A stretch of DNA of 64,000 bases from positions 1-64,000 of the forward strand of contig FWCC01000372.1 in the NCBI GenBank assembly GCA_900169235.1, given 5' to 3'. The stretch is from Zarea fungicola. Its lineage: Eukaryota > Ascomycota > Sordariomycetes > Hypocreales > Cordycipitaceae. Below are positions 13,101 through 57,716 of the stretch, piece by piece. Each line of letters starts with the position of its first letter. Position 1 is the stretch's first letter. A program made the translations under genes and the position numbers. Below the pieces are notes generated by a model, which was given only the letters and a program-made list of their open reading frames with translations, made no database searches and was not told where the DNA came from.

Positions 13101-13936
13101 AGTTCGCTGATCTCATCCCTGTCAAGGTGGTGCTTAACAACATGGATATCCCAGCATGGAATGTCGTAAACGCCATGGCGCAGATCATGGCAAAACAACA
13201 AGAGATCGGCAATCCAGGAAGCGTTCTTTCCATATCACTCAAATTCCCTAAATCAAAACTACAAGACGCGGTCAACCCACTTGGGAACGAACCTATCTTT
13301 ACCACAATGCATAGGCTACAGCGCCACAATATCAATGTTGTCATGTCAGCAGGAAATTTACCCAATGAGCCTTTGGGCGATTTCATTCCGCGAAAATATG
13401 GCGGTGCCACGACCCCCTTCACCGTAGTGGGCTCGGTGGATGCGAATGGTGTTCGGTCGGCGTTCTCAAGCTACATCGACAAAGACCGTCGTGGCATACT
13501 GTCTCTTCATGTCATGGGTGAGAGAATCCTCGTGCCAAGAGTTCGGGGGGGCGACTACCGCCGCGCGTCAGGCACCTCACAGGCCACTGCAATGGCGGCG
13601 GGCATGGCTGCCAGGCTGCTGGCCGAAAATGTTCTCCCACAAGACATCAAGTCTCGACTTCTTGCTGACGGGATTGAGCTGAAAGGAAGTGACTGGGATT
13701 TGGACGACGGATACCTTGTTGCCCGTGCAGGCATAAAAATCCAGGTCCCATGTCAAGATCCTGTGGTGCCCGTTCTTCCAATCCCCACGTACACTATTTA
13801 CCCAGGTGGAGAAACGACCGTGTTCGCCGGTACCGCAAATTTTGCCCCCCCTGCTACTACGATCTCGACTTGCTATAACGTTGCCTCCCACACTCCAGCG
13901 GTATTGTCCACAGTCACATACACCGCCGCCCCCTAG
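10147..13936 (+). CDS. WSC-domain subtilisin-like protease with predicted membrane helix
   Basis: Nine exons (10147-10457, 10558-11016, 11114-11475, 11531-11590, 11752-11846, 11910-11976, 12045-12719, 12786-12877, 12965-13936) give 1030 residues. Order: signal peptide (1-20), Cys-rich segment, Ser/Thr-rich linker, WSC domain (about 208-299, starting FKLKGCFTDSSND), helical Arg/Ala-rich stretch with a dibasic site (TAKRAPPG), hydrophobic helix (about 432-455), second Ser/Thr-rich linker, and an S8 subtilase. The triad is visible: Asp in YLMDGGVD, His in LHGHGT, Ser in SGTSQATA. WSC domains bind wall glycans in known proteins. Domain order suggests a surface-anchored protease. The intron at 11591-11751 has a weak GTATCT donor and is the least certain junction. 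Start chosen at 10147 for the signal peptide; an upstream in-frame ATG lies at 10114. Confidence 0.82.
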
Positions 13937-27147: not shown

Positions 27148-30100
27148 CTAGTTTCTACTTGCCCACTCGTCCAAAGAAGATATCGATGACTGCGTACGTG
27201 GATGATTAGCCCCCAGCTTTAGTTCCATAAGACGAACACAGTCCACCATCAAGGCTGTAGCTGCAGAGTTCTTGCCCATTCTTTTCCAGGTATGAGCGAG
27301 ATGACTCATGCTGATCAGCGTGTTGGGATGATCTGTCCCATGTTTAGCTGTGAAAGCCTCCATCACCTGTACCCCAAGCCTCTCTGCCTCCTCCCAACGG
27401 CCCTGGGCATGACATATCGAAGCTAGGATGTTCATGCTGTTCAGCTTGATGGGATGATCCGCCCCAAGTCTGGCCTTGCTTCTCTCTATCACCAGTACCA
27501 AAAGCTTCTCTGCCTCCTCCCAACGACCCTGGGCCTGGTATATTGACGCTAGGTTATTCATGATGTTCAGCGTGTCAGGATGATTCAGCCCTAGTCTAGT
27601 GTTGCTTCTCTCAATCACTTGTACCCCAAGCTTCGCTGCCTGCTCCAACCGGCCCTGGTACTGGTATGTCGATGCTAGAGTATTCATACTGCTCAGCGTA
27701 TCGGGATGATCCGGCCCAAGGACCTCAATCCGCAGCTCCACAGCCTTTAGCTGGAGTTTCTCCGCATCGTTCCATTGACCTTGGTGGAGTAAGTATGAGG
27801 CCATATTGTGAGCAAGCGCCCCTTTCTGAATCTTCTCATCTTTCGACTCTGCCATGTTAAACTTCAACACTTGATATGCATGCGGAAGATACTTGCTGCA
27901 TGCCACCCAGTTCTCATACGTGCTGACAGGATATGCTTGTGAAACCACTGACAGTGCTTGGCGGGCAAAGCGCGCTGTTTTCTTCTCTTTTGCAAGCCAA
28001 TCTCGCAATACTAACTGGACTAGTTTGTGGATGTCAAGGCCGTGGTCCTGCTCCTCGGTCACGAAAGAAAACGCTTTGAGAATGCCGAGAGACTCCTGGA
28101 ATTGTTTTTTCCTGTACCCTTCTTGATTCTGCTGTTTGCTATAGTATTCCAAGAACTCAATGGGAATGGCTTGTTGGTCAAAAAAACCCATTAGTGATAA
28201 AAGCTCGCTTGCAAGGGCGTTTTGGTGTTGGATTTGTCGAAATGAGAGGGTCCAGGCCCCTGCCACTGTACAAGGGGCCACCGTGTTTTTTATGACTCTG
28301 CCGACGGCTGTGCCAAGCAGGTATACCAGCTCCTGATCGCCCCTATCCAGGAGCTGGAGATAACGACCCACTGTTACCTGATTTCTTTCAATATGTGCGG
28401 CAGCTTGTACAAGAGCATGCGGGAGACAATCCAGTCTGCGCGCGACTGTCAGCAACTCGTCATCACCGGCGCCCTTATCTCGTTCGCCAAGAGTAACGCG
28501 TAGGAGTTGGATGGCTTCTATTTCTCCCATTCTTTTCACCTCAATAGGCCAGATTCCCTTAGCAAGCATCTGGCTTGCTTGCTTGGTGCGGCTTATGACG
28601 AGAATTGACCCGTGAGCGCATTCAGGAATGTACTGTCCTAGGTATTTCTCTTGGGCACTGCTACTGGCGTTCTTCGGTTCCTGATGTGAGGCAAAGAAAA
28701 GATCTGCGTCGTTAGCATCATCGATAATCATGAGCCACGGCCCTCCATCCTTCCTCTCCAGCCAGTGCTTTACTAACGGAAGCACCTGGACCTTGGGATC
28801 ATCATAGCCGGGGATGCTGCATTCTAGAGCGATAGCGGTGTATGATTGTCGAAACTGTTCCGCATTGTGCCCTTGAACCCAGAATACCGACATGTCCGTA
28901 CATGTATCCTTCAGCCTGTATAAGTACTCCAAGGCTATCTGACGCTTGCTGCTGCCGGTTAGCGAGTAGCTGACGCCTGGGCCAACGAACTCACCCAGTA
29001 CCACCGAGGCCGACGAGTGCGGTTCTTGCATGGGAGGAAGGCTTCAAAAACTGTTGAAGCTCCTGTAAAATGGACCTTCGCCCGATAAAGTCGTTGTTTC
29101 TTGGGTATGGGACAAGAACTGTAGGTTTGTAAGAAGAGCTGGCGTGAAATGGAAAGTAGTAATGGTTTACTTACACCAAGACCCGGTCTGCTGTTCCTGT
29201 TTCGAGGTAGGTGAAGCTGACTGCCTTGCTGGGCTCGGGGACTGTTCTCCCGCTCCCCCAAGCACACTCAGAAATGCCACGCTTGCAGCAATGTCCTGTC
29301 CTAGCATGACAAGTTCCTTTACATCCATATCGGAGATGTCACCACCACGCATTCGAAGCACGCTCCTTACATGTACTAGATGAGTCTGGAGCTCTCCCTT
29401 GACGTCCGAACTGTACGTCTCATACTTCTCCGATATGCGCTGAAGTACCCAGCTGAGGCGCACGAGAGCATCGTTCAATTTGTTTAGCCACCCCTCTTTG
29501 CTCTTTGCTATCTGAGGGTCGATCCATGCTATCAAATTGAAGCACAATGTGCCTATAGAATCAATTTCTGAGAGGGAAAAGTGGCCGATGTCGCTTAAAT
29601 CGCGTTGCTCGACTTCACTGGTTGCTTCCTCACCGTCATCCAAAGATAGCACATGATGTACCGTGGAGCCGACGGATGCCTGTGTGTCTTGATTGGGGCC
29701 AATTATCTCCCAAGGCAACGCCTGAAGGGAAAATGAATGCAAATGTTCGGCGATATGCTTGTCTGTTTCTGGGTTTAAAAGAGGAGTGCAACCATGACAC
29801 AGGGGGCATTGAACCGGCGGGAGCGCTGTCCGCTGGCTTTCTTCGGCAAGATCGGGTAGATCATCGTTGTCAAACGCGCCCTCGTGCTGGGTTTTGATAT
29901 GGTCCAGCCATGCTTGTTCGGATTCATATTGAAACTGAGTTGGCTCGTCAGAATCAAACCAACAGGCATCGCAGATCCACCGACAAACGCTATGGCTTTC
30001 CTTCATGTGCTTTTCCCAGTCGTCTGTTGTCACGTACATGGCGTCGGGTGTATCACAATGTGGATATACGCAGACGTACGGGCTCAAATCCTCGGCCAAG

Positions 30101-31815
30101 TGACCGCTGCAGTTCCACATCCATCAGGAAAGTGCTGAAGAAAGGCTGGTTGGACATGACTTACCGCCACTTTTTATCCCTCTTGGGGTCTGAGTAGGAT
30201 GCATCTAAAGGCTGAGCACAGCAAGGGCACCAGAGACTACTTCCAATGGCGGTAGGACATTTTGGATAGTCTTGACTCATCACTCCTTGGGAGAACTTGG
30301 TACTGACCGATCTGGTGCCCTGTGTTCGAGGTCTCTCTGGCATGACAAGTGTGCCGATCTCAGTTGCGCTTTGAGATGACATCACAGAACGATCAATCGC
30401 AGATGCCGGCAGCGATTCTTCTTTTGGTAAATCTGATATTGCGACCACGTTTTTGGACGGTCCAGCTACTGGGTTTGGCTGACTGACTTGGGCTAGCTCT
30501 GCATATTCTGGTTCTTCCATTTTATCATTCTTGGACCGCTTGTCGTCCATGAGTCGACTGTACTTGCTGAAATATACTTCAAATCGATTACGTCGAACCA
30601 AGTTCGCATGGATGAGCCGTGCCTGGACTACGGTCAATCTCCCTGGGTCAGTGAACCGAGCCTTAAGAACTATCCAAAGGTTCTTCCATGCCAAGTTGCC
30701 AGTTTCGGTGTAGCGATAGAGCACCCAGCTCAATAAATGCGTATTTACCGATCCAAGCAGAATAATGCGTATCAGATAGGCTTTAAAGTCTTCGAGATTG
30801 GGAGCTCGCTGCTGTAGAAGCTTGTCGATTCGCTGGTGTCTGAACCTTGTGCCTGACTTTCGTATTGCCGCGGAAATTCTGGCAAGGTATTTCAGCGTTA
30901 TTTCGATGTAGTACATCTGCTCATCAAGCTCCCCATCTCCGTCCGACGGATAGTCTTGAGCCACGTTCGCTGTAGCTCTCTCTTCCAATACCACCTCTGC
31001 TTCATGCAGTTGTTGCGATTCCATATCTGGCGTATCTGCTGTACTGTGGTGTTAATGCGGTCGACTTGATACTTTGCTGCACGGGCCAACATACCAAGAT
31101 TCTTGCAGTTTCTAAGCGAAATAGTCAGACTGTCCAGAAGATTCACAATTACATTACGGACATCGTCTCGGTTTTGGACACGATAGTCAAGCGAGGAGTG
31201 GCTCCGCTTCGTCGCTCCCATACCAAGTGACCACCAGTTGAACTCGGCCGACATCTTGTCTATCCAGTCGCCATCTATAATTCCCGGCCGTTGTTGTAAC
31301 GCCACAAATAAATGCTGGCTGACCTCGGTCCGCTCCCGGATTCCTGCAGGGACCGTGTCTTCGCTCGCGAAGCCGCTCAGGCCAGGGAGGACGGCATTGC
31401 CGCTTGACCTTTGTTGCTTCTCCCCGCTAGAGGCTAGCGAAGTAGGCGATGGGTGCGACGAGCTGTCTCGCTTGCCTATCTGCTGGGCGATCTCTTGACG
31501 TAGGCTGTCACCGTCGCCTCGGGTCCTCTCATTAGAGCTACTCCTGGATCTCGCGCGCGTTGAGCAGGTGCTAGAGCGGCGTTGGATGGGCCTGTCAAGA
31601 TCCTGCCGGGAACCAGATGACCTGTTCGGTTCCTTGGGGCTCTTACTTGCGGGAATTTCCTCCGCAAAGCTGCCAGCGCGGCCACCGTCTGCACCGCAGG
31701 TGGTGGACGGCGACATCATTGAGTCATCGTCCTCAGACTTGCTCTCGAAGCGTGCATTGGCAGCCTCAGACGACTTCAGCGTAGAAGCCCCGTGACCTGG
31801 GGTTGATGTGCTCAT
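27148..31815 (-). CDS. NLR (STAND) protein: zinc-finger region, NB-ARC, TPR repeats
   Basis: Five exons (31815-31095, 31038-30165, 30106-29175, 29118-28995, 28948-27148) give 1483 residues; all phases agree. Residues 1-130 are Ser-rich and disordered. About 160-500 matches the N-terminal helical region seen in fungal proteins with C2H2-like fingers. About 505-680 carries several Cys/His finger-like motifs (LWCPCC, CVYPHCD, CRWICDACW, CPLCHGC). The NB-ARC begins near 845: P-loop GLGGTGKRQIALEY, formed only after removing a 46-bp intron, and Walker B WLMIIDDAND. The C-terminus (about 1270-1483) holds four to five 42-residue TPR units of the kinesin-light-chain type. NLRs of this kind act as intracellular sensors in fungal nonself recognition. 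An ATG 12 bp upstream (31827) is an alternative start. It is divergent from the protease gene. Confidence 0.88.
27180..27790 (-). repeat. Tandem 126-bp TPR-coding repeats
   Basis: Successive units share long near-identical DNA blocks (for example the CTCCTCCCAACG..CCCTGGGC block recurs at about 27387 and 27513). This implies recent duplication or homogenisation of the 42-residue TPR units. Confidence 0.8.
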
Positions 31816-31827
31816 TTTCGGCCTCAA

Positions 31828-32099
31828 GTATTGCGTTTTCTACCGACAGCCCATTCGATGCCTGGAAATCGTTGTGCTCTTGCCCTGGCCAATGTGTGTT
31901 TTGTATTGGTGACTGTCTACTGGCCTTACATGGATCATGCGCTAGCAAACGTTGCTTTTATCCCAACAAAACACACCACCCCTGCCTGCAACGTCGCTGT
32001 CAACACAGCCTGCATGATGAGCTGAACGTCGAGCCAATTAACTGGCGCGGCTCAGACCAGATACCCAGCACTTCTGTTTACCCCGCCCGCCTGCCGGCA
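31828..32099. promoter_or_regulatory. Divergent promoter of NLR and subtilase genes
   Basis: Only about 270-285 bp separate the two divergent starts, so regulation is likely shared. The protease-side frame stays open through this gap to 31803, but its N-terminal extension has no family resemblance and overlaps the NLR start, so I treat it as non-coding. Confidence 0.5.
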
Positions 32100-35000
32100 A
32101 TGAGGAGAGCGTCAGCGGTGCGACGAAGCTCGGTTCGGCGCAGTTGCGGCAAAACGCGACGGAGAGAACCCATGGAAAATATATCTTTGGTCAAGCTCGC
32201 GATTTTGGTCTCGGAGCGCGTGCAGAACGTCGCCGGCGCGCTGGTCGTGGATAGTTCCTGTGCGCAATTCTGTGTCAGCCTGCACACGCTGCTTATTGAT
32301 ATTTCCCGATGGCTTCGAACCCTGCCTGTTGACGACCAAGATGCGCAACAGGAAGCAGCCGCGCTCTTAGAACAATTAAGAGGCATCTTCCCCGCAACAG
32401 AGCATTCTCTGGTCTGCCATGACGGCCCCAAAACGCGCCTTGCGTCCTTTACGCAGCTTCTCACCAACCTCGACGCCGTTACGCTTGCCGTCCGCAGCCT
32501 CGCCAGCGGCAAACGGGACAGACAGCGGCGAACCATACTGGCCTCTCTCGAGTCCTTTCTGCCACAAATTCTGAGCGAGACAGACAAGGTTAACATATCT
32601 CCCTCTAACTCAGATTTACAGGCTGCTAGTACAGAGCCACCAGACTGCGGGAGGGAGATAATATCACTCCATAAGACCTTATACACATACTGCTCCTGCG
32701 CGGAGGCGGACGAGGTGATTGCGCGGGTACGACTGCGTAACAGCGTACCAGATGATGACACTGGGGTGATGTTCAACGTCTTTTTCATGGCACACCCGCA
32801 TCAAGACGGAATAAACCTCGAGTCGCAGCCGCCATGGCAAGACACCCATATTTCGGTGTTGCGCAATGTGTTGGTGAAGAAGCTTTCTAATGGCCAAGGA
32901 TTCAAACTGGCTAACCTGACACATAGGAATTTTGGTATATATACAGATAGTCACCGCGAGGAAATACGACTGGACTCTGACCCACCGTTTTGTTCATATA
33001 TTTCGGCACACGCAAAGACCGGGTTTGTGGTCCATAAATTCTCAGTGACGGGTCAGCGGCTGTACTACGAAGATATGCTCGAGGCCAAACGAGAATGGCT
33101 ATTAAACAGCCCAAGCATATCACTCAGTCGCATCTTGGACGAGCTCTCGACTTCAGCTTCTGATCTGATTATCGAAAAAAGGAAAGAAGTACTTTCATGG
33201 CTATTGGCCAAGGCGGTATGGCAGTACTATAGCACTCCGTGGATGCGCACTCCATGGAACAAAGATACCGTCCATTTCCTGCCTGAACGTCAACAGAACG
33301 AAAACAGTCACGCGGCGGCAGGTATCTTTGTCAACGAACCCTTTTTGTCGTTTTCCATCTGCCCAGAGTCAAAAATGGAGAGACATTGTGATGAAAAGGC
33401 TCCGAAACAACGACCCGCCCCTATCACCCGGTGGATGCTTCATAAGCTACCTAAGATACTGGCGCTGGGCATCATGCTGGTTGAAATCCAGCTCGGATGT
33501 GCAATTGAAACCTTGTACCGGCACCCCGATTGGGCGCAGCATTGCCCTAAGGGAATACCAAATACAAACACTAATTACAAAATATGCCAAGGCCTCATAT
33601 CCAAGGATGATTTCTTTAAAGACGTATCAGTTCCTCTTGAGGCTCTGACTAGGAGCTGCATTCAGCCAAAAGACGTATTTCTACCTCCTGTTGTGAGAGA
33701 CGAGGAAGGTATACGCAAAGCTTTGTATACCTTGGTTAACTGCCTAGAGAGGTATCTTTCGAACCGCAGACCACACAGCGTGAAACCGCTGATAGTGGCG
33801 GGTAATATTAACCAGAAGAAATCGGAGACGCTGCAAGTGGTATCAGTACAACAAGCACCTCCATCTACAAGTCGGCAAGCGAGGTCAAGGCCTGGCCGTA
33901 CGATGGCGGAAAGGTACTTACCCCCCGCCGCTTGTTGTCACCGTTGATGCTATGAACTCTCTTTGCATAAGTGGTTTTACAAATATTGTATGCTAATTTT
34001 ATGTATAAATAGCTCGGCATCAGTCTCTACAAAGGATTGGTTTGAACGTATGCGAAGCCTTAATGATATTCTGAAAGATGATAGCAATGGCACGTTCGCC
34101 AAGGTTAAAATCGCTGTTATCGACACTGGTGTAGATGCGAATGACGCAGCAGCTCTCTATGTCAGCGGCTATCATGACTTTGTGGATGAAGACCATAATT
34201 TTAAGCGGGACAATACAGGTCACGGTACTACCTCTGTCAATCTGATATTTGAAATGTGCGAGACGGCCGAGGTGTACGCGTTGAGAGTGTTTGAGACGGA
34301 TGAGGCAGACGATAGGACTCGAGGGCTTGCTATTAAGGTCAGTGAACTATCACAATTTACACTAGTTGCGCTGATTAGTGGATTGTTTCCTTGTTGCTAG
34401 TTATCATTGATGTTACCCATTTCGTATCTATTATCAGCTACTATCCCTATCTGAGGCTGTTGTACCTGTCGCTAACCGTTGTAATAGGCCATTGAATGGT
34501 GTATCGCGAAGGAAATGGACATAATATGTATGGCCTGTGGCTTCTACGATTTTGATCAAGAACTTTATATGAGGATTCACAAGGCATCCGGCAAGATGCT
34601 CATCTTTGCAGCACCAACAAACGAGAGCAACGCGGGCGAAATTGTCTATCCTGCGCAACACGAGGCCGAGGTATTCAGTATGTTTTCTACTAACGGTTCC
34701 GTCACTAGTTCGAAACATCTCAATCCAACGGCGTGTTCAGGGCAGCACCACTTTGCAATTCTAGGGGAAGACATTGTAACCCACAATGGAAATGTCGTAT
34801 CCGGGACGTCTTTGGCCACAGCCAATGCTGCGGGTTTCGCGGGACAAATGTTGGAGTTCTCAAGGCACAATGACTGCAGGGACAAGATCAGTAATGCGTA
34901 TCAAATGGCTTTAAAGCATGGCATGAAAAAAGTCCTTTTGGGCATGGCAGTCAGAGACGCCAATTTCTACTGCCTGAAGCCTTGGACGCTACTACCGAGC

Positions 35001-35114
35001 AATCTTCGCACCCTAATTCCGTTTAAGAGCAATCGCTACCCGAGCGACGCTGAAATACGAGAGGCGCGAAAATATATCCGCAATTTTATTACACTACAAT
35101 TAGAAGGTACTTGA
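32100..35114 (+). CDS. DUF7580-like/subtilisin-like serine protease (HET-Q2-type candidate)
   Basis: Three exons (32100-33913, 34013-34337, 34488-35114) give 921 residues. There is no signal peptide, so it is probably cytosolic. Residues about 10-590 resemble the fungal DUF7580 domain, with the blocks LAKAVWQYYSTPWMRTPW and PKILALGIMLVEIQLG. The C-terminal S8 domain has the triad Asp (KIAVIDTGVDAND, about 641), His (NTGHGTTS, about 673) and Ser (VSGTSLATANAAG, about 819), plus the oxyanion-region Asn in APTNESNAG. In Podospora anserina the subtilisin-like HET-Q2 cleaves and activates the gasdermin-like HET-Q1; a gasdermin-like gene lies 312 bp downstream here in convergent orientation. Role as its activator is inferred from this context. 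An alternative start is the Met at 32172. Confidence 0.87.
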
Positions 35115-35426
35115 ACTGGTGGTATGACTGGGATATGTGTGATGGGAGGAGAGTGTATTGGCCGCTATGTAGGAGGTATTGAGATGACTATGGGAAGGTG
35201 TGCGGCACGTGTCTGGCCTGTTTGGCGTCCACCACCCACCCGTGGTAGAAATTAGCCCGTGTCAGTCATGCTTGGTCCTTTGTTCCAAACACGGATGAGA
35301 AGCTTTGTACAAACTCTCCTTAACCGGCCACCGCAGCTGCTGTAGCTCTGTCGTCTCAGTTTTCTATCTTGCCAGTTGTGACTATCGCAGTTGTAACAAT
35401 CCTGACTATTGTAACTGATACGGCTG

Positions 35427-36355
35427 TCACAGCAAAGTAATAAATACTTCCTCCGTGCAGCCATTCAAAACCTTCACAACTCGTACATTGTCTTCTTCTA
35501 GCCCCTCATCTTTCAAAACAGCCGACACATTGACCGTGTCTGGATGCGACTGCAAAGTGGCTCCCTTGGTGAAGGTCTTCTGCGCAATGTCAGACGAAAA
35601 CAGCGGCATTGACACCTCGGTCAAGCGTACCGCCCAAACGAAGTCATTCGAGAACTGGCCCGAGATGCCGACCTCAGTTTCACTGGTACGCCCGATATTG
35701 GCCCTAACCTGTACCGCTCCCGTCACGTCCCTGTGTGTTTGTCAGCAAGAGGCTCGATCCAGTCACTGGTTCCGCTGGCGAATCCGCCGGTCAGACTTAC
35801 ACTTCGCCACCTATATTGGCACTGTTTATTGCACCATCTGTCCGGTTCCGCCTCGCCCCGCGTGCAACGATGAGTCCGCTGACCATGTACGCCTTCCAAA
35901 GCGGGAGCTTTCGCTTTTCCACCCACTCTGCCAGCGGTGACGGCGCCTTGAAACAATCCCTGAGGTAGTGCATGGTTGGCTGTACAATCTGCGTCTCCAG
36001 CCGGTTCGACCTCCCACACATCGCCCATCACACGCTTAAACACAGCCCCGGCCTCGGCGCCGACCATTACACCCGCAGCGGCCGCGACGGGTGCTGCAGC
36101 CTTGGCCCCCGCCTCCACGCCCTTGTCGCCTGTGTGGGAGAAGCGAAAGTCGACGGCGTTGGTCGTCCAGATCCTCATGCCTTTCGGAAACGGCGTGATG
36201 GCGTCGGGGTTAATGACATTGTCCAGCTCGCGGTGGCTGGGGATGAAGCTGCCGAGGAGGATAGGACCCTTGGCGGCGCCAAAGGCCTTGCCTGGGTGTG
36301 TGTATTCCGGGGCTGGGTAGTGCGTCTGGCGCAACACAAACCAGCATTTATTCAT
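35427..36355 (-). CDS. Gasdermin-like pore-forming protein (RCD-1/HET-Q1 family), one-base frameshift
   Basis: Exon 1 (36355-35801) and exon 2 (35730-35427) flank a 70-bp GTAAGT..ACACAG intron. The start MNKCWFVLRQTHYPAPEY and the block GPILLGSFIPSHRELDNVIN match the N-terminus of the fungal gasdermin-like family. These proteins permeabilise the plasma membrane and cause regulated cell death after proteolytic release. The reading frame is interrupted near 36001-36006: the conserved start and the conserved middle segment (LWKAYMVSGLIVARGA) lie in different frames because of one surplus base in a CCGG context. Without that base the frame would be about 285 codons, near the family size. As written, translation continues out of frame to a stop at about 210 codons. 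Real null allele or sequence error cannot be separated here. Confidence 0.82.
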
Positions 36356-37248
36356 GGTCGGTAACTTCTCTTAGCCCAAGGAAATATTCTTCTTGGGAGC
36401 ATGAAGGTGTAAATGGTGCATGTTGACGGGATGCGGGGTTATGCAAGGCTCAGCCGAAGATGCAGCGCTGTCCTCTATACACCGTTTCATAATACCGCCC
36501 TCTACATTTTTATCCTGAGTTCCTTTACTATTATGTCCTAATTTTAAAATGTTTCTATACATGTATATTTATATCGGCCATTAGACTAGTTGTACTTTAG
36601 TAGCCCTAGCTACACTACATAGTTTTAATATACACTTCTAAACGAACAATATAAATTCTTTACTAGTTCATTAGCTTACTCGTAGCAACTATGGAAAACT
36701 AAATGAATTTCATGCAGACGGACAATCTTTGCTCTCAACCATGACTGGTCGATACATCGGTAGTGATATCACGACTTTTCTTTATGGCAGCGGGGTAGCT
36801 GATAAATTTAAGCTGTTTATTATTATCATTCTCATTAGTATTAACGGCCGGACATTGGCCAGTGTACGCAAAAGCTGTAAAAACTGCTGTTGCATATTAG
36901 GCATTGTGCGCAAAAACTGCAAAAACTAGTGTTGTGTATTAGGCACAGTAGGCAACTGCTGCAGCAACCCCAGCCTCACATTAGGCACGGTAGGCAGAAG
37001 TGGCAAATGCGAAAAGAGAAAAAAACCACTTGGCATAGAATTCAATTTAAAAAATCGCCAAGTATATATAATATTTGAATCCAGGGTCAAGGTTGTAGAG
37101 AATGTATGCATAAGTGCTGTTGTCCATGAGTGAGTCATCCACCCTTGCGCGCAACGGATTCACTGCGTATTTAAATAATTGAAAATTTCCCGCATCTCGT
37201 TCGGAACTTTGACACCAACCAGACTACAACCGTGCCCAAGCATATACC
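36356..37248. other. Intergenic with imperfect tandem repeats
   Basis: Between the divergent gasdermin-like (-) and methyltransferase (+) starts. AT-rich around 36530-36670; the tandem repeat at 36863-36991 is listed separately. Confidence 0.5.
36863..36991. repeat. Three imperfect about 43-bp tandem units
   Basis: Units contain GCAAAAxCTG(T/C)AAAAACT and end in (T/C)ATTAGGCA(T/C)(T/A/G)GT. The first two are close copies and the third is diverged. Confidence 0.65.
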
Positions 37249-38010
37249 ATGGACCGTCTTCCAACCGAACATCGATACTCGGAAGTGATGTGGAATTGCC
37301 CACTATCAGAGGCCTGCGCCGAGGACCTTCTCAGCCGCCTTGAGCTCAGTCCAGACACCGACCTCGTCGACATCGGCTGCGGCTGGGGCGAGCTCCTTCT
37401 CCGCGCATCCGAAAAATACGGCACACGGGCCAGGGGCATCGATGTTGACGTGGGCCACATTGAGCGCGGCAGAACAAACGCCAGCGATCGGAACCTCGAC
37501 GTGGAATTCATCCAGAAGCCAGCCGACCAGTGGTGCCGCGTTGATCGAGAACACGAGTACCAGCTTCAACGGCGTGGCGTGGAAGAGCCGCGGGAGGAAC
37601 GCGCAATCTGCATCGGTGCCTCCCACATCTTTGGTGGCACGAGGGAAATGCTCTTTGAGCTGTCAGGCGTCGTCCCGAAAGGGATGGTGCTCGTGGGCGA
37701 CATGTGCTGGGAGAGGCCGCCGTCGCCGGCCTGCCGGGACCTGTTTGGCGATGACATCCTGTCACTCCGCGATTTTGCCGCTAGCTGCGGACAGATGGGA
37801 TGGGACATTATGCATCTGGTGACGGCGACGCAGCAGGACTGGGATACCTTTGAGTCGGGCCTTTGGGCGGGACCAAGACGGTGGCTACGGGAGAGTCCAG
37901 ACAATAGTATTGTAGAGGCCGTGGAACATGATCTAAAAATCAAGGAGGAAAATTACTTTAATGTTTATCGGGGCCAGTTGAGCTTTGTTTATGCTATTCT
38001 TGAAAAATAA
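37249..38010 (+). CDS. SAM-dependent methyltransferase
   Basis: An intronless 253-residue class I methyltransferase. Motif I is LVDIGCGWGELLLRA (about residues 39-53), followed by an acidic strand-2 end (ARGIDVDVGHIERG) and an ICIGASHIFGGT segment corresponding to motif IV and beyond. The segment between about 88 and 115 (after FIQKPADQW) is charged and unlike the rest; a local pair of compensating frame changes there is possible but not shown. Substrate unknown. TATAAAT-free promoter; the start context is ACCATGG. Confidence 0.78.
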   Translation: MDRLPTEHRYSEVMWNCPLSEACAEDLLSRLELSPDTDLVDIGCGWGELLLRASEKYGTRARGIDVDVGHIERGRTNASDRNLDVEFIQKPADQWCRVDREHEYQLQRRGVEEPREERAICIGASHIFGGTREMLFELSGVVPKGMVLVGDMCWERPPSPACRDLFGDDILSLRDFAASCGQMGWDIMHLVTATQQDWDTFESGLWAGPRRWLRESPDNSIVEAVEHDLKIKEENYFNVYRGQLSFVYAILEK

Positions 38011-38179: not shown

Positions 38180-39298
38180 TTAAAACTTCTTACTCAAATT
38201 GGCATATATATTGCGGAGCGGATTCTGCAGCCACAAAGGCCACGCACGAAGGCTCGAGATGGCCGACAGTCTCTCAGGCAACATGAGCTGCGCGCCCTTG
38301 CACGCAAAAATCTGATCCGTGACCGCCCTCGCCACGTCGTCGCTGTCGAGCAGATGGATACCGCTGTCACCCAGCATCTCGGTGTATTTGCCAATCAGCG
38401 GCGTGGTCACAAAGTTGGGGTGGACAATGGACGTGAGCACGCCGTGCGCGCCGTGTATGCCGCGCAGGTCCGCGCCGAGCGCCTCGTGGAACGCCAGGGC
38501 CGACACCTTGGTGCACGAGTAGTCGGCCGCCTTGGCGAGGCTGATAAAGGCCGCCATGCTCGACATGGTCACGACGTGGCCCTTGTCGCGCGCAATCATG
38601 TGCGGCACAAACGCCTGCGCCGTGTACCAGTGCGCCATGGTGTTGATCTGAAACACCTTGTTCAGCGTCGCGGGCGGCATCGCCAGGATGCTCGTGGGCA
38701 CAAAGATGCCCGCGTTGTTGACGAGGATGGACGGGCAGCCGAGCTCCGCGCGCACGGCGTCGGCGGCCTTGTTCACCGACTCGGGTGAGGCGACGTCGCA
38801 GTGGAAGTAGCTGATGCGCTTGTCATGGTCACCACTGCCAAGATTCTCGGGGAGAGGCTGGATGTCGAGGACGGCGACGCGGACGCCCCGGGCGGCGAGC
38901 TGCTCGACAATGTGCAGGCCGATGCCGCTGCTTCCACCAGTGACGACGGCGATTTCACGCGGCCAATCCCAGCCTACGGCTTTAGTGAGCCGCCACGAAT
39001 TAGACGCGGCCGAGTTGGCGATTGCGCTGACGACTTTGACGGCGCCGTAGCCAAAGACGAGCTTGAGCGCGAGGCCAACGGTGCGAGGGTCAAGATGGCC
39101 GAGGAAGGAGAGCCGCTGGAGGAGAATTGCCTGCGCGCTCGGACTGGCAGCTTGGAACGCAACGAGAGCAGCACCAGAGACGGCTGGGTGAAAGAGTAGG
39201 CCCGTAATGTATTCCACAGCCAGCAGAGGAGCCGAGTCCGCGATGCGTAGAATGTTTGACATGCTGCACGATGCTCTGGTTGGGACGGACAGGGACAA
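38180..39298 (-). CDS. SDR oxidoreductase with N-terminal membrane segment (RDH/DHRS-like)
   Basis: A 372-residue intronless SDR; the second Met at 39262 would give 360 residues. A hydrophobic N-terminal region (about 13-100) probably anchors it to the endoplasmic reticulum or lipid droplets, as in retinol-dehydrogenase-like SDRs. The cofactor motif TGGSSGIG follows WPREIAVV; then NNAG, the Ser of TMSSMAAF and the YSCTK active site. C-terminal part IVHPNFVTTPLIGKYTEM fits the family. Substrate is probably a lipid or retinoid-like alcohol/ketone (inference). Confidence 0.9.
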   Translation of the reverse strand: MSLSVPTRASCSMSNILRIADSAPLLAVEYITGLLFHPAVSGAALVAFQAASPSAQAILLQRLSFLGHLDPRTVGLALKLVFGYGAVKVVSAIANSAASNSWRLTKAVGWDWPREIAVVTGGSSGIGLHIVEQLAARGVRVAVLDIQPLPENLGSGDHDKRISYFHCDVASPESVNKAADAVRAELGCPSILVNNAGIFVPTSILAMPPATLNKVFQINTMAHWYTAQAFVPHMIARDKGHVVTMSSMAAFISLAKAADYSCTKVSALAFHEALGADLRGIHGAHGVLTSIVHPNFVTTPLIGKYTEMLGDSGIHLLDSDDVARAVTDQIFACKGAQLMLPERLSAISSLRAWPLWLQNPLRNIYANLSKKF

Positions 39299-40365
39299 CA
39301 GGAGCGAGGTATGAAAATTAAAAGAAGAGCGGTAGCGAGGAATGAGAACGTAGGTGGAACGATTTCTGTATATTTATAGACTCCCATACATGCTCAGCTG
39401 GCGTCGTTCGATATCAGCTCTTCCTGCCTGTGCGGCGTCGCATCAGGCTAGCTGAGTCGGCCATGGGCCGAGCGCTGTAGCGCCAGTCCAGATGTAACTG
39501 ACAAATTACAAGGCAGCATGTCTAGAAATCACCTTGAGACCCCTTTTCCTGTCTGGAGGTGGGTTGGACGACCCAAATCATCCACATAGAGACGGAATAC
39601 ACCCGGCTTCATTTTCGTCCAGATCGGCATACTTAGTAAGTCGGGGGCGACTGTGCGGAGCAGTCAAATGAACCCTTGCCATTTGCTCAACAAGTGTTGC
39701 CAGTTGAGATGGGACTATCCACCTTTGTGGAATAGTGACTGGATTCTCCTCTTTCTGTGGTACGCTATGTGGAAACTGTTTTTCTTTGTTGCTCCGCCTG
39801 CGAGAATGCCTGCCGGCGGGCTGACGAGTTGAACGATGCCGAACGTCCAAGTTGATGGTTCCGTGTCTCACTACTAGAGCCCGCAACGGAAGCTATAGAC
39901 CAGCCGCCCGCCCCAAAACGTTAGCCAACTAGTTTGCTAGCGGAAGTTTCCGTGCGCAGTTGCGATTCATTTGCGAATAATTAGCTGAGCAATGGTCGGT
40001 GTAGAATAGACTTATGCATAATTTGAAGGCATCTACACCCCTTGCACCATGTGTAATCCAAAGCGCCCCCAAACTGTCCTCATTGCGTTTATTTTCCTCA
40101 ATCATGTAGTCGAATTATTGAATGCAACCGAGCCATATCGCTCGTTCTATTAATGTTCCTCTTTTGGCTTTAACTCTCGAAGGTCTAGCGGGATGTGGAG
40201 TCTTTCATATGCTACGCCGCGCGCGCACCAGTTTGCCTCTCAGCCTTGTTGCCGCGGGCTGACTGGACGAGATCCAAAACTCACTGCAATCAAGATCTCT
40301 CCTTTCTCTGTGCCCCATAACCTTTTTTGCACCCACCTTCTCTGATCGCTTTCTGGCTGCCTCCA
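39299..40365. other. Divergent intergenic region
   Basis: Promoters of the SDR (-) and the Zn2Cys6 regulator (+). The frame at 39578-39886 (-) is unrecognised. Confidence 0.5.
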
Positions 40366-47942: not shown

Positions 47943-48920
47943 TCATCCCGATTCTTCTGCCTTGACGAACGGCTCCGTACTCTTTTCGCAAAAGTCCCAG
48001 AACTTTGCCGCTAGCCCTGAGCCACCCTCTTCCTTACTCTTCAACCCCAGCGCGACATCTGATCGAAGTTTGCCAAACTGACCCCATGGTACAATATAAC
48101 ATCCGTTCTTATCCTGCCCAATATCGCTGGACCAGCCCGCGAAAAGCTCTGTATACGCACCATAAATGGCGTCGTGCTGCAGATAATGCTGCACCTTGGC
48201 CCGAAAGTCCTTGACGTGTCTGAGGAGGCCCGTTCGCAAACTCCCCGGGTTAAAGGAGACACTGAGAATGCCGTGCCGGCGGCCAAATTCCGACGCAAGA
48301 TACACGTTGCCGACTTTGCTCTGGCAATAATCGGGGAGCGGGTCGCCGTGGACCTTGACCGAGCCATCCGCTTCATAGACAATGCCCCCAGGGGAAGGCG
48401 ACAGCTCGGTCACGACGGAGCTGGCCCAGGTGACGCGCGATCCCTCGGTCGCCTTGAGGACGGGGACCAAAAGCTGCGAGAAGAGGAAATGGCCCAGGCA
48501 GTTTGTCGCAACCTGCAGCTCGAACCCTTGCGCACTCGTGCTACCCGCCGGGGGCATCATGACGCCCGCATTATTCGTGAGGACATCGAGCCGCGACTCG
48601 GCGGCCAGGAACTTTTCTGCGGCGCGCTTCACAGTGGGCAAGTCGGAAAAGTCGGCCTCGAGAAAATGCAGCGTGCCCTTGGAGTTGCCATATGTCTTTC
48701 GAATCTGCGCAATGGATGCAGTGGCCTTTTCCTCGCTCCGGCCAGCCACGTAGACCGTCGCGTTCTTGGCGTACAGAATCTTGGTGAGCTCTTCGCCCAA
48801 ACCAGCGTAGCCGCCCGTGACGACATGGACCTTGCCCGTCTGGTCGGGGAGGTTCTTTTCGGTGAGCTTCGGCGCCGCAATGAAATGCGCCTGCTGGAAT
48901 ATGCGGATTATGTGGGACAT
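47943..48920 (-). CDS. SDR oxidoreductase (retinol dehydrogenase/WW-oxidoreductase-like)
   Basis: An intronless 325-residue SDR. Cofactor motif TGGYAGLGEEL (about residues 35-45) and YVAGRSEEKA, whose Arg suggests NADP preference; NNAG after LDVLT; the catalytic Ser region VTWASSVV; YCQSKVGN as the YxxxK pair; and NPGSLRTGL after strand 6. Length and motif spacing are typical of fungal RDH-like SDRs, often found near secondary-metabolite genes. It lies 1.1 kb from the PKS 3' end, so a tailoring role is possible but unproven. Confidence 0.9.
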   Translation of the reverse strand: MSHIIRIFQQAHFIAAPKLTEKNLPDQTGKVHVVTGGYAGLGEELTKILYAKNATVYVAGRSEEKATASIAQIRKTYGNSKGTLHFLEADFSDLPTVKRAAEKFLAAESRLDVLTNNAGVMMPPAGSTSAQGFELQVATNCLGHFLFSQLLVPVLKATEGSRVTWASSVVTELSPSPGGIVYEADGSVKVHGDPLPDYCQSKVGNVYLASEFGRRHGILSVSFNPGSLRTGLLRHVKDFRAKVQHYLQHDAIYGAYTELFAGWSSDIGQDKNGCYIVPWGQFGKLRSDVALGLKSKEEGGSGLAAKFWDFCEKSTEPFVKAEESG

Positions 48921-50006
48921 GGCGGCGATGGAAATATGGAAAATCAGATGAAGAGTCCAGTGTTGGATTATTCCGCCAACGTGGCGGGAACACGCACTTA
49001 TATAAAAGCCATAAGCAGTAGAAAGAATGGTGTCTCAAGGTGGCTGACCGTATTCCGAAAATGGCAGATAATATAACTAGCCAAGTGGAACATCCCCCGC
49101 CGGCAACTTGATGGCTCCGTATCCGCTGATTCCTGTTGGCTGCGGCTTTGGTAGCCACGCCAATTCTTTATTCAATGGGGACAAATTGTAGAGAACGGGA
49201 CAAATTATATAGAATATATATATATATAGATATATAGATATTATCTCCAAGAAACGGGCCAGAGGGTCCCACCTCAAATTAAATCTTCTAAAGAGTGGCT
49301 TCAAAGCGCTTTAAGGTTGGCTGTCCAGCGCTTTATGGTAGGCTGCTAGCTAAAAGCTACATGAACGTAATGGGGAGAGTTGAGTAACTGTTCTGGAAAT
49401 ATTAAAGCCGGCCTTATAGATACCGACTGCCAAGCTACGCCCCCAACACATTTCCGAACCGGCACTCGGGGAAGTCGGAGCAGAACCGCGGATTTGTACT
49501 CTGCTTGGTACGGCCCGGCACCCGATAGGCTTTTATTCTGCCCCCGGTTCGGAATTGCATATCTCCTGTTTGTTCCATTAGCCCCGAAAGTTGACTCCGA
49601 AGATAGAAAAACCCACATGCTGACAGAGCCCGCCCTTGCATGCTCGAGGCAATTCCATTAACTTTAAATTGTAACTAGTTGCCTAAATTAATTTCCGACT
49701 CGTACCCGCACCAACATCAAACCCAAAGTTGCCAGAAAGACAGGGCCGGCCGCGTCGCGACATGCGCGGGGGAGTCGATTCCTGGGATTAAGAAGGCAAA
49801 CCAGAAACCCCAGTCGTGCCATGGCGAGATTTGTATTGAGCTTTTTTCTGACCATGACTCGCCGAGGATACATATAGCCAATCCCGCAATGCAGACTAAA
49901 TAGGAGAGAATATTTTCTGAGAACTATTAAACTAAAAACGTAAAACGTGCATGCTTGATATCATGCAAGAGCAAAATGTCTTGTCAACTGCAATTTTGTG
50001 TTTTCT
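48921..50006. other. Intergenic, nothing recognised
   Basis: Contains a TA-rich microsatellite near 49213-49240. No gene-like frame was identified. Confidence 0.5.
49213..49243. repeat. (TA)n-rich microsatellite
   Basis: An imperfect TA repeat (ATATATATATATAGATATATAGATAT). Confidence 0.7.
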
Positions 50007-53000
50007 TTAGATCCCCCGCAGCCTTTCCAGTAGCTTTCTTGCCAACTCTATCAACGTACCACTTTGCATAATATCGAAAATAGTTGCAATCGGTGTCACA
50101 TGCTGCTGCAGAAGAGCGCGGAGCTCAACAGCCACCAAGGAATCAACTCCAAAGCCCAATAAAAGGCCGTCTGGCTCAATTTGCGCTGCTGGCATGCCCG
50201 TGAGAGTCGATATCTGCTCAATGATGCGCTTAACCAGAGCAGCCGTCGCAGCATTGGAGTCGAGGCCTGAAATCTGCTCCTCTGTGGACAAGGTCTTGGG
50301 GCCCTGGCTCAACGGAGCGGTAGTGCCTAATCGCAACCGTTGAGAGCACGCAAACTTGGGCTCTTCACGCCATCCTATGTTCTCTGAACTCATCCATGGC
50401 TCGATACCAGTCACCATCTGTGGATGCATAGGATTCGTGATGGCCAGTTCCACAAAATGCAGCAGATCGGACCGCTTCTGGTAGCGGCAGCCCAGCTTGT
50501 GCAGGCGCGCACCAACACCGCTTCGCCAGGCCAGGCCGAGCTCTGGAACACTGCCAATGTTAATCGAGACAGCAGGCAGTCCTTTGCTTACACGCCGCTG
50601 TGCCAGCGCATCCTGGTATGCTCCAGCCGCAGTATAGTTGGCTTGGCCAACGTTGCCCACCACCGCCGTCAGCGAAGATAGGAAGATGAAAAAGTCCAGC
50701 TCTCCGACTTGTTGAAACAAGTCATCCAGATTTCTGGAGCCTCGCGCTTTTACTCGTAGAACCGTCTGCCACTGCTCTGCCGTCATGTTGGAGAAGAGGG
50801 AGTCCTGCAGGACCGCTGCGGCTTGGACGATGCCGCGAATGTTGCCACACTGCTTCACTAGCAGTTCGAGTTCTTGTTTTTTTGAGACGTCGCAATTCTT
50901 AACCACAAGCTCCGTACCTAGATCTGTAAACTGGGCCTGAATATCACTTGTCGACTGCGTCTCCGCCGATCGTGAGATCATGACAATCCTGCCAGCGCCG
51001 CAGCGAGCAAGGTACAAGGCCGTTTCCAGACCCAACCCGCCGAGACCACCAACAACCAGATACGTGCCAGACGCCTTTAACCGCGGCTTGAGGACAGATG
51101 GGAGTACCTGGAAGAAGATTAGCTATTGTGCTGTTGAGAATGTTGATTGCAAATGTACCTTTATAGTGTCGTTCCCGCTTACTTCAACCATCCGCCTTTC
51201 ACTGTGGTCCCCTCGCCGAATAGGGTCGAATGCATTTGTCAATTTTGGTAAAACAAAACTACGAACTGCAGTTGACATGTATGGCAGCACAAGCCCTGAG
51301 TGTAAATGCCGCAGAACTTCTCCAGTCCGCCGCAATATGGACTCTTGTTTTGCAAGCTTGAGTCTGCCAATGTCGACAGCAATGTGCGAAAAGCATAAGG
51401 AGGGGCCGCTAGAAGGTGCCACATCACTGCCCTCCAATGAAGTCACTTGCACGAAACTCCCAAATGGAGATAGGAGAAACGCTGTTGGCACAATTCCTGC
51501 AACCGTTGAGTAGATGGAGCAGTCAACAATGACGTCCGGGACGGGGCCGTCTGGTAGCTGCGTGTGAAGATTAGAGCTGTTGCTGCCTTCAAAGATGATG
51601 ATTCGATCCGTCAACTCTGGATACATGGCCCGCAACTCCTCTTTTTGCGCAGCTGATGCAACCAGCGCAAGGACTCTCTTCGCGGTGGCAATATGCAAGC
51701 TCATACCCAGCATGGCATGCCCCAAGGCACTATTAGCGCCATTGATCAAAATTGACTTATTATTACTGCCACTCACGCCACACACTTCCTCCAAGAGACA
51801 CCATGCAGTGGCCAGGTCGGTGGCCAGCAAGGACCTTTGCTTGGCATCCGCATGTGATAAAAAGTCTGCCGGCAGAACAGAAGCAGAATTCCAGCTCACC
51901 TGGATTCTGTTGGTCCACGCTTCTCCTGGCGCAAGGACCACAACTGTATCCCCCACGTTGCAGGAATCTGGAACGTTGCTTCCAACGCGCGAAACAACAC
52001 CAACAAGTGACAAGGAGCGATCATTTTGCTTGGCCAGCGTGCTGCCTGGTAGGTCCCAAGCATTTGCAGGAAAGACGCTGGGCGTGACTTCGATGAATGA
52101 GGGTTGCAACTCGTCAGCTAGGGTCTCCTCCCAAAATGAGAAAGGCTCACCGCCCTGCCATTTCATCTTCAACTGGCACGCGGAGCTGAGCTTCATGTCC
52201 CGAGGTATAGGCAGCCCGCGCAGCCCGGACAGTTCTTTGTTTAGCTCCGTGCTTGCTGCCATGCGAGGAATCCAGCACTGTCTGCCTCTTCGCCAGAACT
52301 CATATTCCTTGTGCGGTGAGGCCGGGGCAGAGGCCATTGAAGAAGAGAACACGTTACAGATGCTGTCTATTGAGGCGTTATCCCAACTCTGTAGGTCAAT
52401 GTCTAGAGACACGAGGGTTTTCATCCGCTCCTCCAGCCGGAGTGTTCTCAGCAGTCCTTGCACCAGCGGTGATGGAGCTGGTATATCCATCGCGTCTTCT
52501 TCAACAAAATTACGCTTCGTAATCCACAGGAGATGGTTGGATGCTTGGATTGTCTGTTGAAGAGCTGACAGAGTATCTTGGGTCAAGTTCCATAGGAACT
52601 CTTCACCGTCCGTGGCAAGTATAATAACTGCCTTTCCACATAACTGGTCTGAGCCCAGAATACCATGCGACACTATTGTTCCAGTTGCTTCTGCAAGAGA
52701 GTTGGCGAGGTGTTCAACATATGTCGCAGACAATGGTGTATGCCCTGGCAGCTGGACCAATGCGGTCTCAGCCGGGAAGTCATGTGGCCCACGGGAAACT
52801 GCCAGCTTTGCGACTGTGACCGAATAAGGGGCAACTCGGCCATTTGCCTCCTGGATCTGCATGTAAAATCCAGCTTCTTGGAGAAGTGCAAAATGCGCCT
52901 CCTTTCTCGTAAGCGTTGCGCATTCTGATGTGTCCTTGGGCGCTGGCCACTCTGGTCCTTGGGATGTAGTTTCCATCAGTTGCAGCATACCACTTGGCTT

Positions 53001-56000: not shown

Positions 56001-57716
56001 CTGCCTTTATTAGTGATGGCGAATAGGTATTTCGATTTGACCGTTTCTGCTCCCATGGTGTGGCCACCGGTATCGAGGATTTTGTCTTGTGATTCTTCAC
56101 AAATTCCGATAAGGCTCCCATTATTCCTCTGATGAATGCCATTTCGCTTCGTGCGACCTATTATAGCCCCATGAATGGAACCATTTTCATCTTCTCTGGA
56201 GCCGAAAAAGCTTCGCGGACACTCCAAAATGGCGTGTGTATTGCTCCCACCTACACCAAAGTTTGCTATTGATGCTCTGCGAGGCATCCCCTTGGGCCAC
56301 TCTGTGATTTTTTTGGGGAGCTTGCCGAAATTAGTAATTCTCTTTTACATCAACAAGGCCTTTTACGTACCGTAATATTCAGTGCCTCAAAGTCGATTTG
56401 TGGGTTGGGCTTGTCAAATATTGCAAGCGGGGGAATAGCCTCCTCCTCAAACATCTTGACCACCTTGGCAATGGCTGCAATACCACTGGCTGCTTCCGCG
56501 TGGCCAATATTTGATTTGATTGAGCCGACGATAACTGGCTGATCAGCCGGGCGAGCTGCTCCAAAGACGTTGCCAATAGCAGAAGCTTCTGTCTTGTCTC
56601 CCGTAAGGGTACCTGTGCCGTGCGCTTCCACGTACGGTGTATCCTTGACATCTATTCCAGCACTCTCATAACACTGCCGAATAAGCTCCTCCTGCGCTGT
56701 TTGTGATGGTGACGATATTGTCGGCGTCTTGCCATCTTGATTCATCGCAGTTCCATGGATAACAGCCCTAATTGGATCGCCACTGCGAATCGCAGCATCC
56801 AAAGGCTTTACAATCAGGCACCCAACTCCTTCACCACGCCCATAGCCACCCGCGCGCGAGTCAAAGCTATACGATTTGCCAGAGGCTGCAAGAAACCCCA
56901 ATGTGGACAAGCCGATGGCTGCACCGGGATGTAGTAAAAGATTGGTGCCTCCAACCACGGCCATGTCCGCGTCACCAGATTGGAGCGTCTGGCAAGCAAC
57001 ATGCAAGGCGGCCATTGCTGTTGAGCAGGCGGTGTCGACAGTAATGCTTGGCCCTCGAAGGTCAAAAAAGTGCGAAATTCGATTGGCTATCATGGTTGGC
57101 CCGTTGCCCGTGGCAGCATAGCGTGGGAGGTTGTCAACATCCATCATGAGGATGTCGTTGTAATCATGGAAAAGTGCGCCGGCAAAGACTGCCGTGCGTG
57201 ATCCTGCAACGGATTCCATAGGTAGACCAGCTGCATTCCATTAGCACCCTTACTTGCATCCTTGTTTGAACAACACACCTGATTCAAATGCTTCAAAAGC
57301 TGTTTCCAGCAGCATTCGAACTTGAGGATCCATGGACTAACGTATTATTTGTAAATAGCCTTGTTCAAATGTTTTGTCAATTACTTACACGCGCCATTTC
57401 GGCAGACATGTTGAAAAACGATGCATCAAAGTGTGCGACATTTTCATTCAGAAACTGTGCACCACTGCTGTGAAACTATTCATTGCTCACGCATTAGTTC
57501 GGGTAGTCGCCTCTAGTGTGTATGTCTTCTAACCGTGCCAAGGCGCTCAACTTTACCATCATGGAAAGCGGCTTCATTTAGACGGGACTTTGGCCATGGC
57601 GACCAAGTGTTTCTGGCATTCACTGCTAGGTTCCACAGACCGTCGGGTGAGTCTGCATCACCTGGGAAGCGGCAGCCAAGCCCGATAATGGCAAATGGGA
57701 TCGATTTCGCGCTCAT
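50007..57716 (-). CDS. Highly reducing polyketide synthase (KS-AT-DH-cMeT-ER*-KR-ACP)
   Basis: Seven exons (57716-57534, 57475-57389, 57336-57279, 57230-56371, 56320-55636, 55582-51159, 51107-50007) give 2465 residues with all phases agreeing. KS: Cys in VDTACSTAMAAL, His in EAHGTGTLTGD and KSNIGHAEAASG. AT: FTGQGAQW and GHSSGE. DH: His in LQDHAVQSQVLLPG, Asp in VLDSCFQVAW. cMeT: VLEIGAGFGATTAAIL, near residue 1388. The ER region (about 1750-2070) has GANSALGHAML where active domains carry a glycine-rich NADPH loop, so it may be inactive. KR: VVGGLGGLGLETALYLAR with SSLTAVVG and NYTAAGAY. ACP: GFGVDSLVAVELR, with Ser for the phosphopantetheine arm. No release domain. Product unknown. Confidence 0.93.

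Follow-up and report, generated by a model that had tools for sequence, protein, structure and literature searches.

Do a receptor-like gene, a protease gene and a gasdermin-like gene that lie side by side in a fungal genome form one cell-death module, and if so, which part of the receptor-like protein belongs to it? This question is raised by a locus of Zarea fungicola within positions 1-64000 of contig FWCC01000372.1 (C451), the 64,000-nucleotide stretch that is hereafter called the window; it is part of assembly GCA_900169235.1 (43.1 Mb, 456 contigs), and all recurrence and linkage results below refer to this single assembly of one genome. There, a gene resembling a NOD-like receptor (NLR), a subtilisin-like protease (subtilase) gene and a gasdermin-like gene occupy the following positions.

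27148 to 31815, minus strand: NLR-like gene encoding an N-terminal region, C2H2-like fingers, a nucleotide-binding (NB)/DUF7779 part and tetratricopeptide repeats (TPR) (splice model, Pfam, finger-family profiles)
31816 to 32171, no strand: intergenic region of 356 bp between the head-to-head NLR-like and subtilase genes (coordinates)
32172 to 35114, plus strand: DUF7580-Peptidase_S8 gene encoding a Q2L-type subtilase of 897 amino acids (splice model, Pfam)
35115 to 35426, no strand: gap of 312 bp between the convergent subtilase and gasdermin-like genes (coordinates)
35427 to 36355, minus strand: RCD-1-type gasdermin-like gene, with exon 1 at 36355-35801 and exon 2 at 35730-35427 (splice model, phmmer)
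35427 to 35573, minus strand, approximate bounds: C-terminal tail of ∼48 amino acids beyond the part aligned to RCD-1-1 (phmmer alignment)

We consider it probable, with real room for doubt, that this locus belongs to a set of seven copies of a cell-death module with three genes, for a receptor or adaptor, a protease and a gasdermin. The three gene models were built by hand from splice sites, and they agree with a first-pass annotation of this DNA on where the genes sit and how they face each other: the NLR-like gene does end at 27148 and spans to 31815, it diverges from the subtilase gene, and the latter converges with the gasdermin-like gene across a gap that we confirmed from the subtilase stop.

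The evidence that carries this reading is recurrence. DUF7580 (PF24476) is found in 10 places in the genome and the S8 protease domain (PF00082) in 36 matches that merge into 31 loci; the two occur together at seven loci, i.e. C451 (the window), C216, C258, C144, C196, C119 and C54. A genome-wide search with the C216 gasdermin protein (E up to 10) returns seven gasdermin matches, and these coincide with the seven DUF7580 + S8 loci without exception (E=3.7e-73 for C54, 8.2e-15 for C258, 1.7e-12 for C144 and 4.0e-11 for C119; the two weaker values are given below). The gasdermin lies no more than 3.1 kb from the subtilase at 7/7 loci. C216 itself was first indicated by a weak match of window exon 2 (E=0.04). 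A gasdermin-like open reading frame (ORF) is visible on reading the neighbourhoods of C216, C258, C144, C196 and C54, while at C119 there is none in 108000-117900 and the C216-protein search located it just outside that stretch. The remaining 24 S8 loci and the three loci with DUF7580 only gave no match to either the C216 or the C144 gasdermin query; the genes at those three (C112:114148, C315:227022 and C422:125131) also lack an S8 match. The first-pass annotation had asked for co-localisation of the three genes in relatives, and it is found here among own-genome copies at seven loci. A coincidental arrangement in the window is ruled out, because 7 of the 31 S8 loci have DUF7580 and these are precisely the ones with a gasdermin. 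For seven S8 loci drawn at random, the chance of hitting exactly the DUF7580 ones is 1 in 2,629,575 (3.8e-7), which is a description and not a proper probability because shared descent of the loci is ignored. All genome searches were six-frame with a single query each, and only first-look candidates were scored, so that family sizes may be underestimates; the C144 gasdermin query, for example, missed the window. Gene ends are approximate at all loci except the window.

Are the family identities secure? The window protease was annotated as a DUF7580-like subtilase with an intact Asp/His/Ser triad, and this holds. Its exons (32172-33913, 34013-34337 and 34488-35114) encode a protein that matches DUF7580 (1.8e-16) and Peptidase_S8 (1.6e-14) in Pfam and keeps all three catalytic motifs (Asp in AVIDTGVD, His in NTGHGTTS and Ser in VSGTSLAT). 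With 312 bp to the gasdermin gene, it falls among Q2L proteases, whose genes lie <10 kb from a gasdermin gene. About 600 residues, DUF7580 included, precede the S8 domain. A structure model of exon 1 (580 of the 897 amino acids) contains five N-terminal helices; it is of low confidence (mean predicted local distance difference test score 46.6) and gave no Foldseek match at E<=0.001, so that the subtilase may or may not have a HeLo-like N-terminus.

The gasdermin-like protein, read through its frame break with X, was compared with solved structures by phmmer and matches rcd-1-1 (2.8e-33), rcd-1-2 (1.5e-32) and HET-Q1 pores (0.041). Residues 1-239 of the 287 in the query align to residues 5-246 of the 261 in the rcd-1-1 chain, and the gene has a 70-nt intron (35800-35731). 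A six-gasdermin profile (alignment A1, C119 out) matches RCD-1 (1.4e-30) and HET-Q1 (8.7e-13), and one of five paralogues (alignment A3, window and C119 out) matches RCD-1 (5.5e-16) and HET-Q1 (6.2e-10), followed by unrelated chains at 0.067 or above. The family has the gasdermin fold, and these matches place the protein encoded at 35427-36355 in the RCD-1/gasdermin family, the test on which the first-pass annotation had staked its proposal; chance resemblance as the origin of the gasdermin label is ruled out by the same matches. For the window member, as judged by these searches, it is the phmmer match to rcd-1-1 that secures the assignment and not the own-genome profile, whose recovery of it, with the window excluded, is weak (6.2e-5, 0.0021 and 0.044 for its three pieces). 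Pfam gives no match above threshold for the gasdermin proteins; a weak sub-threshold match to Trypco2, a trypsin-co-occurring domain, was seen in the C258 gasdermin (L047:6912-7739; E=0.077). A model of the C216 gasdermin aligns to bacterial gasdermins too, with lower Z.

A third gene completes the unit: at 7/7 loci, a gene of the same finger family adjoins the gasdermin/subtilase pair. The finger region has invariant Cys, His and Trp columns in a six-member alignment (A2; C144 was out and joined later), and leave-one-out profiles recover every held-out member with E from 1.7e-16 to 6.2e-33 among 1425 ORFs from the fetched loci and the window. The region ahead of the fingers is helical by eye and shares a loose motif (RF-xx-WA and SLDxRL) in the seven aligned N-termini; it is statistically supported only between some loci (C144 with C119, C216 and C451; C54 with C216 and C144). 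The C-termini are of different kinds: NB-DUF7779-TPR in the window, a NACHT-type domain (NPHP3_N, 1.1e-15) and, after it, ankyrin repeats at C258 (from an ORF scan, not exon models) and ankyrin repeats within the same ORF at C144. Because the C-termini differ between loci while the finger region recurs, the alignments indicate a constant N-terminal half with C2H2-like fingers, joined to a receptor part that can be exchanged. The third protein, given this constant half and C-termini of receptor type at three loci, is a natural candidate for the switch of the module.

The finger region is otherwise rare. Genome-wide, the C54 protein finds it at C216, C258, C144, C451 and C119 and at one outside locus, C363 (6.3e-4), and misses C196. 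With the C258 protein as query, it turns up at C196, C119, C54 and C216 and nowhere else among the 61 of 87 candidates scored; this search missed C451 and C144, and more family members may exist. The C144 protein finds C119, C216 and C451 only and misses C54, C258 and C196. The C363 relative is a long C2H2 protein (C363:60500-67000; L068) with a distantly related finger region, on a contig without an S8, DUF7580 or gasdermin match, and is a possible source of the finger domain of the module.

In the window, the third gene has five exons (31815-31095, 31038-30165, 30106-29175, 29118-28995 and 28948-27148) separated by GT-AG introns of 56, 58, 56 and 46 nt, and encodes 1483 amino acids; the acceptor of intron 1 is one among several frame-keeping choices. 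Three parts of it matter here.

29175 to 30106, minus strand: exon 3 with the C2H2-like finger region, a family member (leave-one-out profile E=4.8e-22)
28948 to 29118, minus strand: P-loop region, interrupted by a 46-nt intron (28994-28949) and reading GLGGTGKRQIALEY when spliced, with the Walker A Thr replaced by Arg
27148 to 28948, minus strand: last exon with the remainder of the NB part, DUF7779 and TPR repeats (generic sequence)

The first-pass annotation called this protein a zinc-finger/NB-ARC/TPR NLR. The fingers and the C-terminal repeats expected of a fungal NLR (TPR_10, 2.7e-49) bear this out, but NB-ARC is absent from the Pfam results, the NB matches are sub-threshold (AAA_16, E=0.029; nSTAND5, 0.058) and DUF7779 (1.2e-5, 25.9 bits) is slightly below its cut-off of 27. 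The N-terminal and finger pieces scanned against Pfam gave sub-threshold matches only for any effector or signalling domain. The two top-scoring own-genome paralogues, spliced by eye, read GLGGIGKTQ (C280) and GLGGVGKTQ (C187), both with GKT. Since these close paralogues have canonical P-loops, the label 'NB/TPR NLR' seems fair for the window protein.

Gene order is far from uniform. At five of the seven loci (C451, C216, C258, C119 and C54), finger and subtilase genes stand head to head with short gaps, whereas the finger gene faces the gasdermin gene at C144, and at C196 the gasdermin gene sits between the other two. Gasdermin and subtilase genes are convergent at C451, C258, C144 and C119, tandem at C216 and C54, and divergent at C196. 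The gasdermins share 16-29% identity between copies, except for C216 and C54 (51%). Our main argument that the three genes function together is that linkage persists despite this rearrangement. In a mirror-tree comparison, identity matrices of the three families correlate (r 0.87, 0.82 and 0.80). The values fall to 0.59, 0.51 and 0.38 without C54 (reached by 28, 28 and 92 of 720 permutations) and to 0.64, 0.53 and 0.46 without C216 (24, 35 and 74 of 720). Co-inheritance of the three genes is thus only suggested by these matrices, because their correlation mostly stems from the C216/C54 pair.

How might such a module work? The three family identities, the 7/7 linkage, the kept triads and the exchangeable C-termini can be read from the sequences; the order of activation, the contact between finger N-terminus and protease, the cleavage of the tail and the formation of pores are what we infer. 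At rest, the gasdermin would be held inactive by its own C-terminal tail, and the ∼600 residues ahead of the S8 domain, DUF7580 included, would restrain the protease as long as the third protein is idle. The latter may sense a cue via its C-terminal part and then oligomerise or change shape, upon which its constant finger-bearing N-terminal part would release the DUF7580-S8 subtilase. The freed subtilase, as a dedicated protease, would cut off the gasdermin tail, and the released pore domain would kill the cell in allorecognition or defence. We further propose, as an idea that is slightly easier to doubt than to accept, that the finger N-terminus is an undescribed dedicated adaptor that plugs exchangeable receptors into a DUF7580-S8 protease that fires the gasdermin, in an inflammasome-like, uncontracted chain. 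The earlier picture of sensor, activator and executioner lying together is upheld by the family placements and the co-localisation, with the amendment that the constant partner is the finger N-terminus and not an NLR as such.

Several observations weigh against the three-gene module as described. (i) With the C216 query, the gasdermin matches of the window (E=0.19) and C196 (1.69) are weak; that of C196 improves to 0.02 with the C144 query (six matches in total) and to 2e-11 with a profile excluding C196. (ii) A finger relative exists outside the module, since C363 matches the finger profiles with E from 2.2e-7 to 3.8e-12 in addition to the single-query match. (iii) In the ORFs scanned, which cover part of the exons, an NB part was seen in only two of the seven third genes (window and C258), and no recognised C-terminal sensor domain was found at four of the seven (C216, C54, C119 and C196). 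(iv) A domain common to the N-termini of subtilases and finger proteins, which we considered, was not found by hhalign (probability 0.2%; four of the seven subtilases and all seven finger proteins). (v) The window P-loop, GLGGTGKRQ after splicing, appears degenerate in its Walker A motif (GKR) relative to the GKT of the two close paralogues. (vi) The reading frame of the window gasdermin is probably broken, without a convincing intron.

The last point deserves a closer look. Exon 1 uses two frames, MNKCWF...GDVWEV and then NRLETQIVQPT..., which join around 36005-36010; unspliced, frame 0 ends after 210 amino acids, and the gene does not form an intact ORF. The junction falls within a block conserved with RCD-1, where RCD-1-1 reads WEF-DRLE; as RCD-1-1 keeps the matching residues adjacent, there is no sign of intron sequence inserted there. 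The alternative that survives best, and that we regard as unlikely, is that the window gasdermin is whole and that its apparent break reflects a mistake in the assembly or an unusual intron that was missed. It draws on 370 GT/GC-AG cuts of at least 20 nt that give an open frame across the break; scored against RCD-1-1, cuts of 22-31 nt reach up to 290 (best at 22 nt), and the best cut of at least 40 nt, one of 43 nt, reaches 268. However, the plain read-through with X scores 303, more than any cut; the longer cuts start at poor donors (GTGATG and GTGTTT) and would delete residues that are conserved in RCD-1, and no single-base run longer than 3 occurs at the break. Fungal introns are longer than 22-31 nt. 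The C119 gasdermin (L066:1029-1348) has a 50-nt intron a few residues ahead of the block in which the window frame breaks, and good intron signals were not found in the window gasdermin at the corresponding position. The other six gasdermins in the genome look intact. Because the gasdermin frame is broken and the P-loop of the NLR-like protein is degenerate, the window copy may not work: to judge from these two lesions, it is probably damaged and hence inactive or reduced to its protease.

A less favoured alternative, which we think improbable, is that the gasdermin and Q2L protease form an ordinary pair and that the finger/NLR gene is a passenger neighbour without a role in the pathway. The unit in print is a two-gene cluster, in passages of PMC10197012. 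NB/TPR genes are common in this genome: the NB-TPR part of the window protein has 46 matches over 21 contigs (its own counted), and 11 other contigs carry matches that start at the start of its NB part. Moreover, immune-type genes cluster, or the seven loci may descend from one ancestral locus; as they may share descent, the 7/7 linkage does not amount to seven independent events. What speaks for a role in the module is that the finger region is at all seven loci and in only one other place (C363) by the single-query searches (one of which scored 61 of 87 candidates), that the linkage holds although gene orders vary and most gasdermins are so little alike, and that retention at 7/7 loci is hardly expected of a passive neighbour.

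Equally improbable, in our view, is that the C2H2-finger protein binds DNA and regulates a shared promoter, in place of acting as a post-translational receptor. The C2H2-like fingers and the head-to-head arrangement at 5/7 loci would suit such a regulator. Yet the finger genes of C144 and C196 are not head to head with the subtilase, the finger ligands are incomplete in some copies (by eye), and ankyrin, TPR and NACHT C-termini are types found in fungal receptors. Weakest is the notion of a het-Q2-like state for the window locus, an allorecognition polymorphism in which a working protease beside a dead gasdermin kills fusions with an intact-gasdermin strain: the kept triad next to a broken frame, the idiomorphic het-Q1/het-Q2 of Podospora (in passages of PMC12881547) and a proposed pseudogenisation route to allorecognition (in passages of PMC10197012) speak for it, but it rests on one assembly, HET-Q2 is much shorter (388 residues, in passages of PMC10989679) than the 897-amino-acid window protease, whose N-terminal part may still restrain it, and simple decay of the window gasdermin is likelier.

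The window contains further genes. A methyltransferase gene (CMAS-like, 2.3e-8; 37213-38007, plus strand) adjoins the gasdermin gene, and a second S8 subtilase gene (12833-13933, plus strand; 5.7e-18) gave no match to DUF7580 and is not close to any gasdermin match. The minus strand at 51126-57240 carries fragments of a highly reducing polyketide synthase (ketoacyl synthase, acyltransferase, dehydratase and methyltransferase); two further stretches, 47946-49034 and 38183-39373, encode short-chain dehydrogenases. The polyketide synthase and dehydrogenases likely form a secondary-metabolite cluster ∼15 kb from the death module.

How does the proposed module compare with known systems? The pairing of a gasdermin with an S8 protease is already known, and the finger-bearing third gene is an added variant. 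Passages of PMC10197012 state that ∼80% of fungal gasdermin genes adjoin protease genes. The window family resembles het-Q1/het-Q2 of Podospora anserina, in which one locus combines a subtilisin-like protease gene with the gene of a gasdermin whose C-terminal tail is short, and HET-Q1 is matched by profiles of its gasdermins. HET-Q2 cuts ∼40 C-terminal residues from HET-Q1 and thereby starts cell death, according to passages of PMC10989679. The Podospora genes differ, as far as passages of PMC10989679 and PMC12881547 describe them, in the much shorter protease and in being idiomorphs, whereas here an 897-amino-acid protease carries DUF7580 and a third gene is present at 7/7 loci. Among solved gasdermins, RCD-1 of Neurospora crassa is the nearest to the window gasdermin. 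In passages of PMC12881547, however, RCD-1 is not protease-controlled and acts when two allelic variants meet, while its window relative adjoins a protease gene; the rcd-1-1 chain has 15 amino acids past the aligned part, compared with ∼48 in the window gasdermin. An RCD-1-type gasdermin beside a protease bears on the origin of the cleavage-free RCD-1 system.

Two-gene Q2L clusters are closer in content. Passages of PMC12881547 and PMC10197012 describe gasdermins adjoining multidomain S8 proteases, repeat- and NB-bearing sensors and NLRs that incorporate an S8 or CHAT protease, and mention 'kinase-like' protease fusions. In what passages of PMC10197012 call a 'contracted' pathway, some of these receptors include the protease in their own polypeptide; here, the receptor-like protein, the protease and the gasdermin each have a gene of their own. 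Bacterial clusters also group gasdermin with protease genes (passages of PMC12881547), and differ from the intron-bearing genes, S8-DUF7580 protease and finger-bearing third protein of Zarea fungicola. In the passages concerned, reviews present fungal clusters of gasdermin and protease genes chiefly as units of two genes and urge study of protease control (PMC12881547, PMC10197012); one speaks of 'two- or three-gene clusters', with the third gene of the gasdermin cluster unnamed in the part concerned. Full-text searches, including passages of PMC12881547, PMC10197012, PMC10989679, PMC9815663 and PMC11138114, returned no description of a finger-bearing third gene, which may be in Clave 2022. 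A third family linked at 7/7 loci is a concrete candidate for the regulator, with a constant part for the protease complex and exchangeable parts for the cue. If our reading is true, fungi have an uncontracted receptor-protease-gasdermin chain, present here in seven diverged copies, and its three-gene layout is closer to the mammalian NLR-caspase-gasdermin chain than to the 'contracted' Q2L type.

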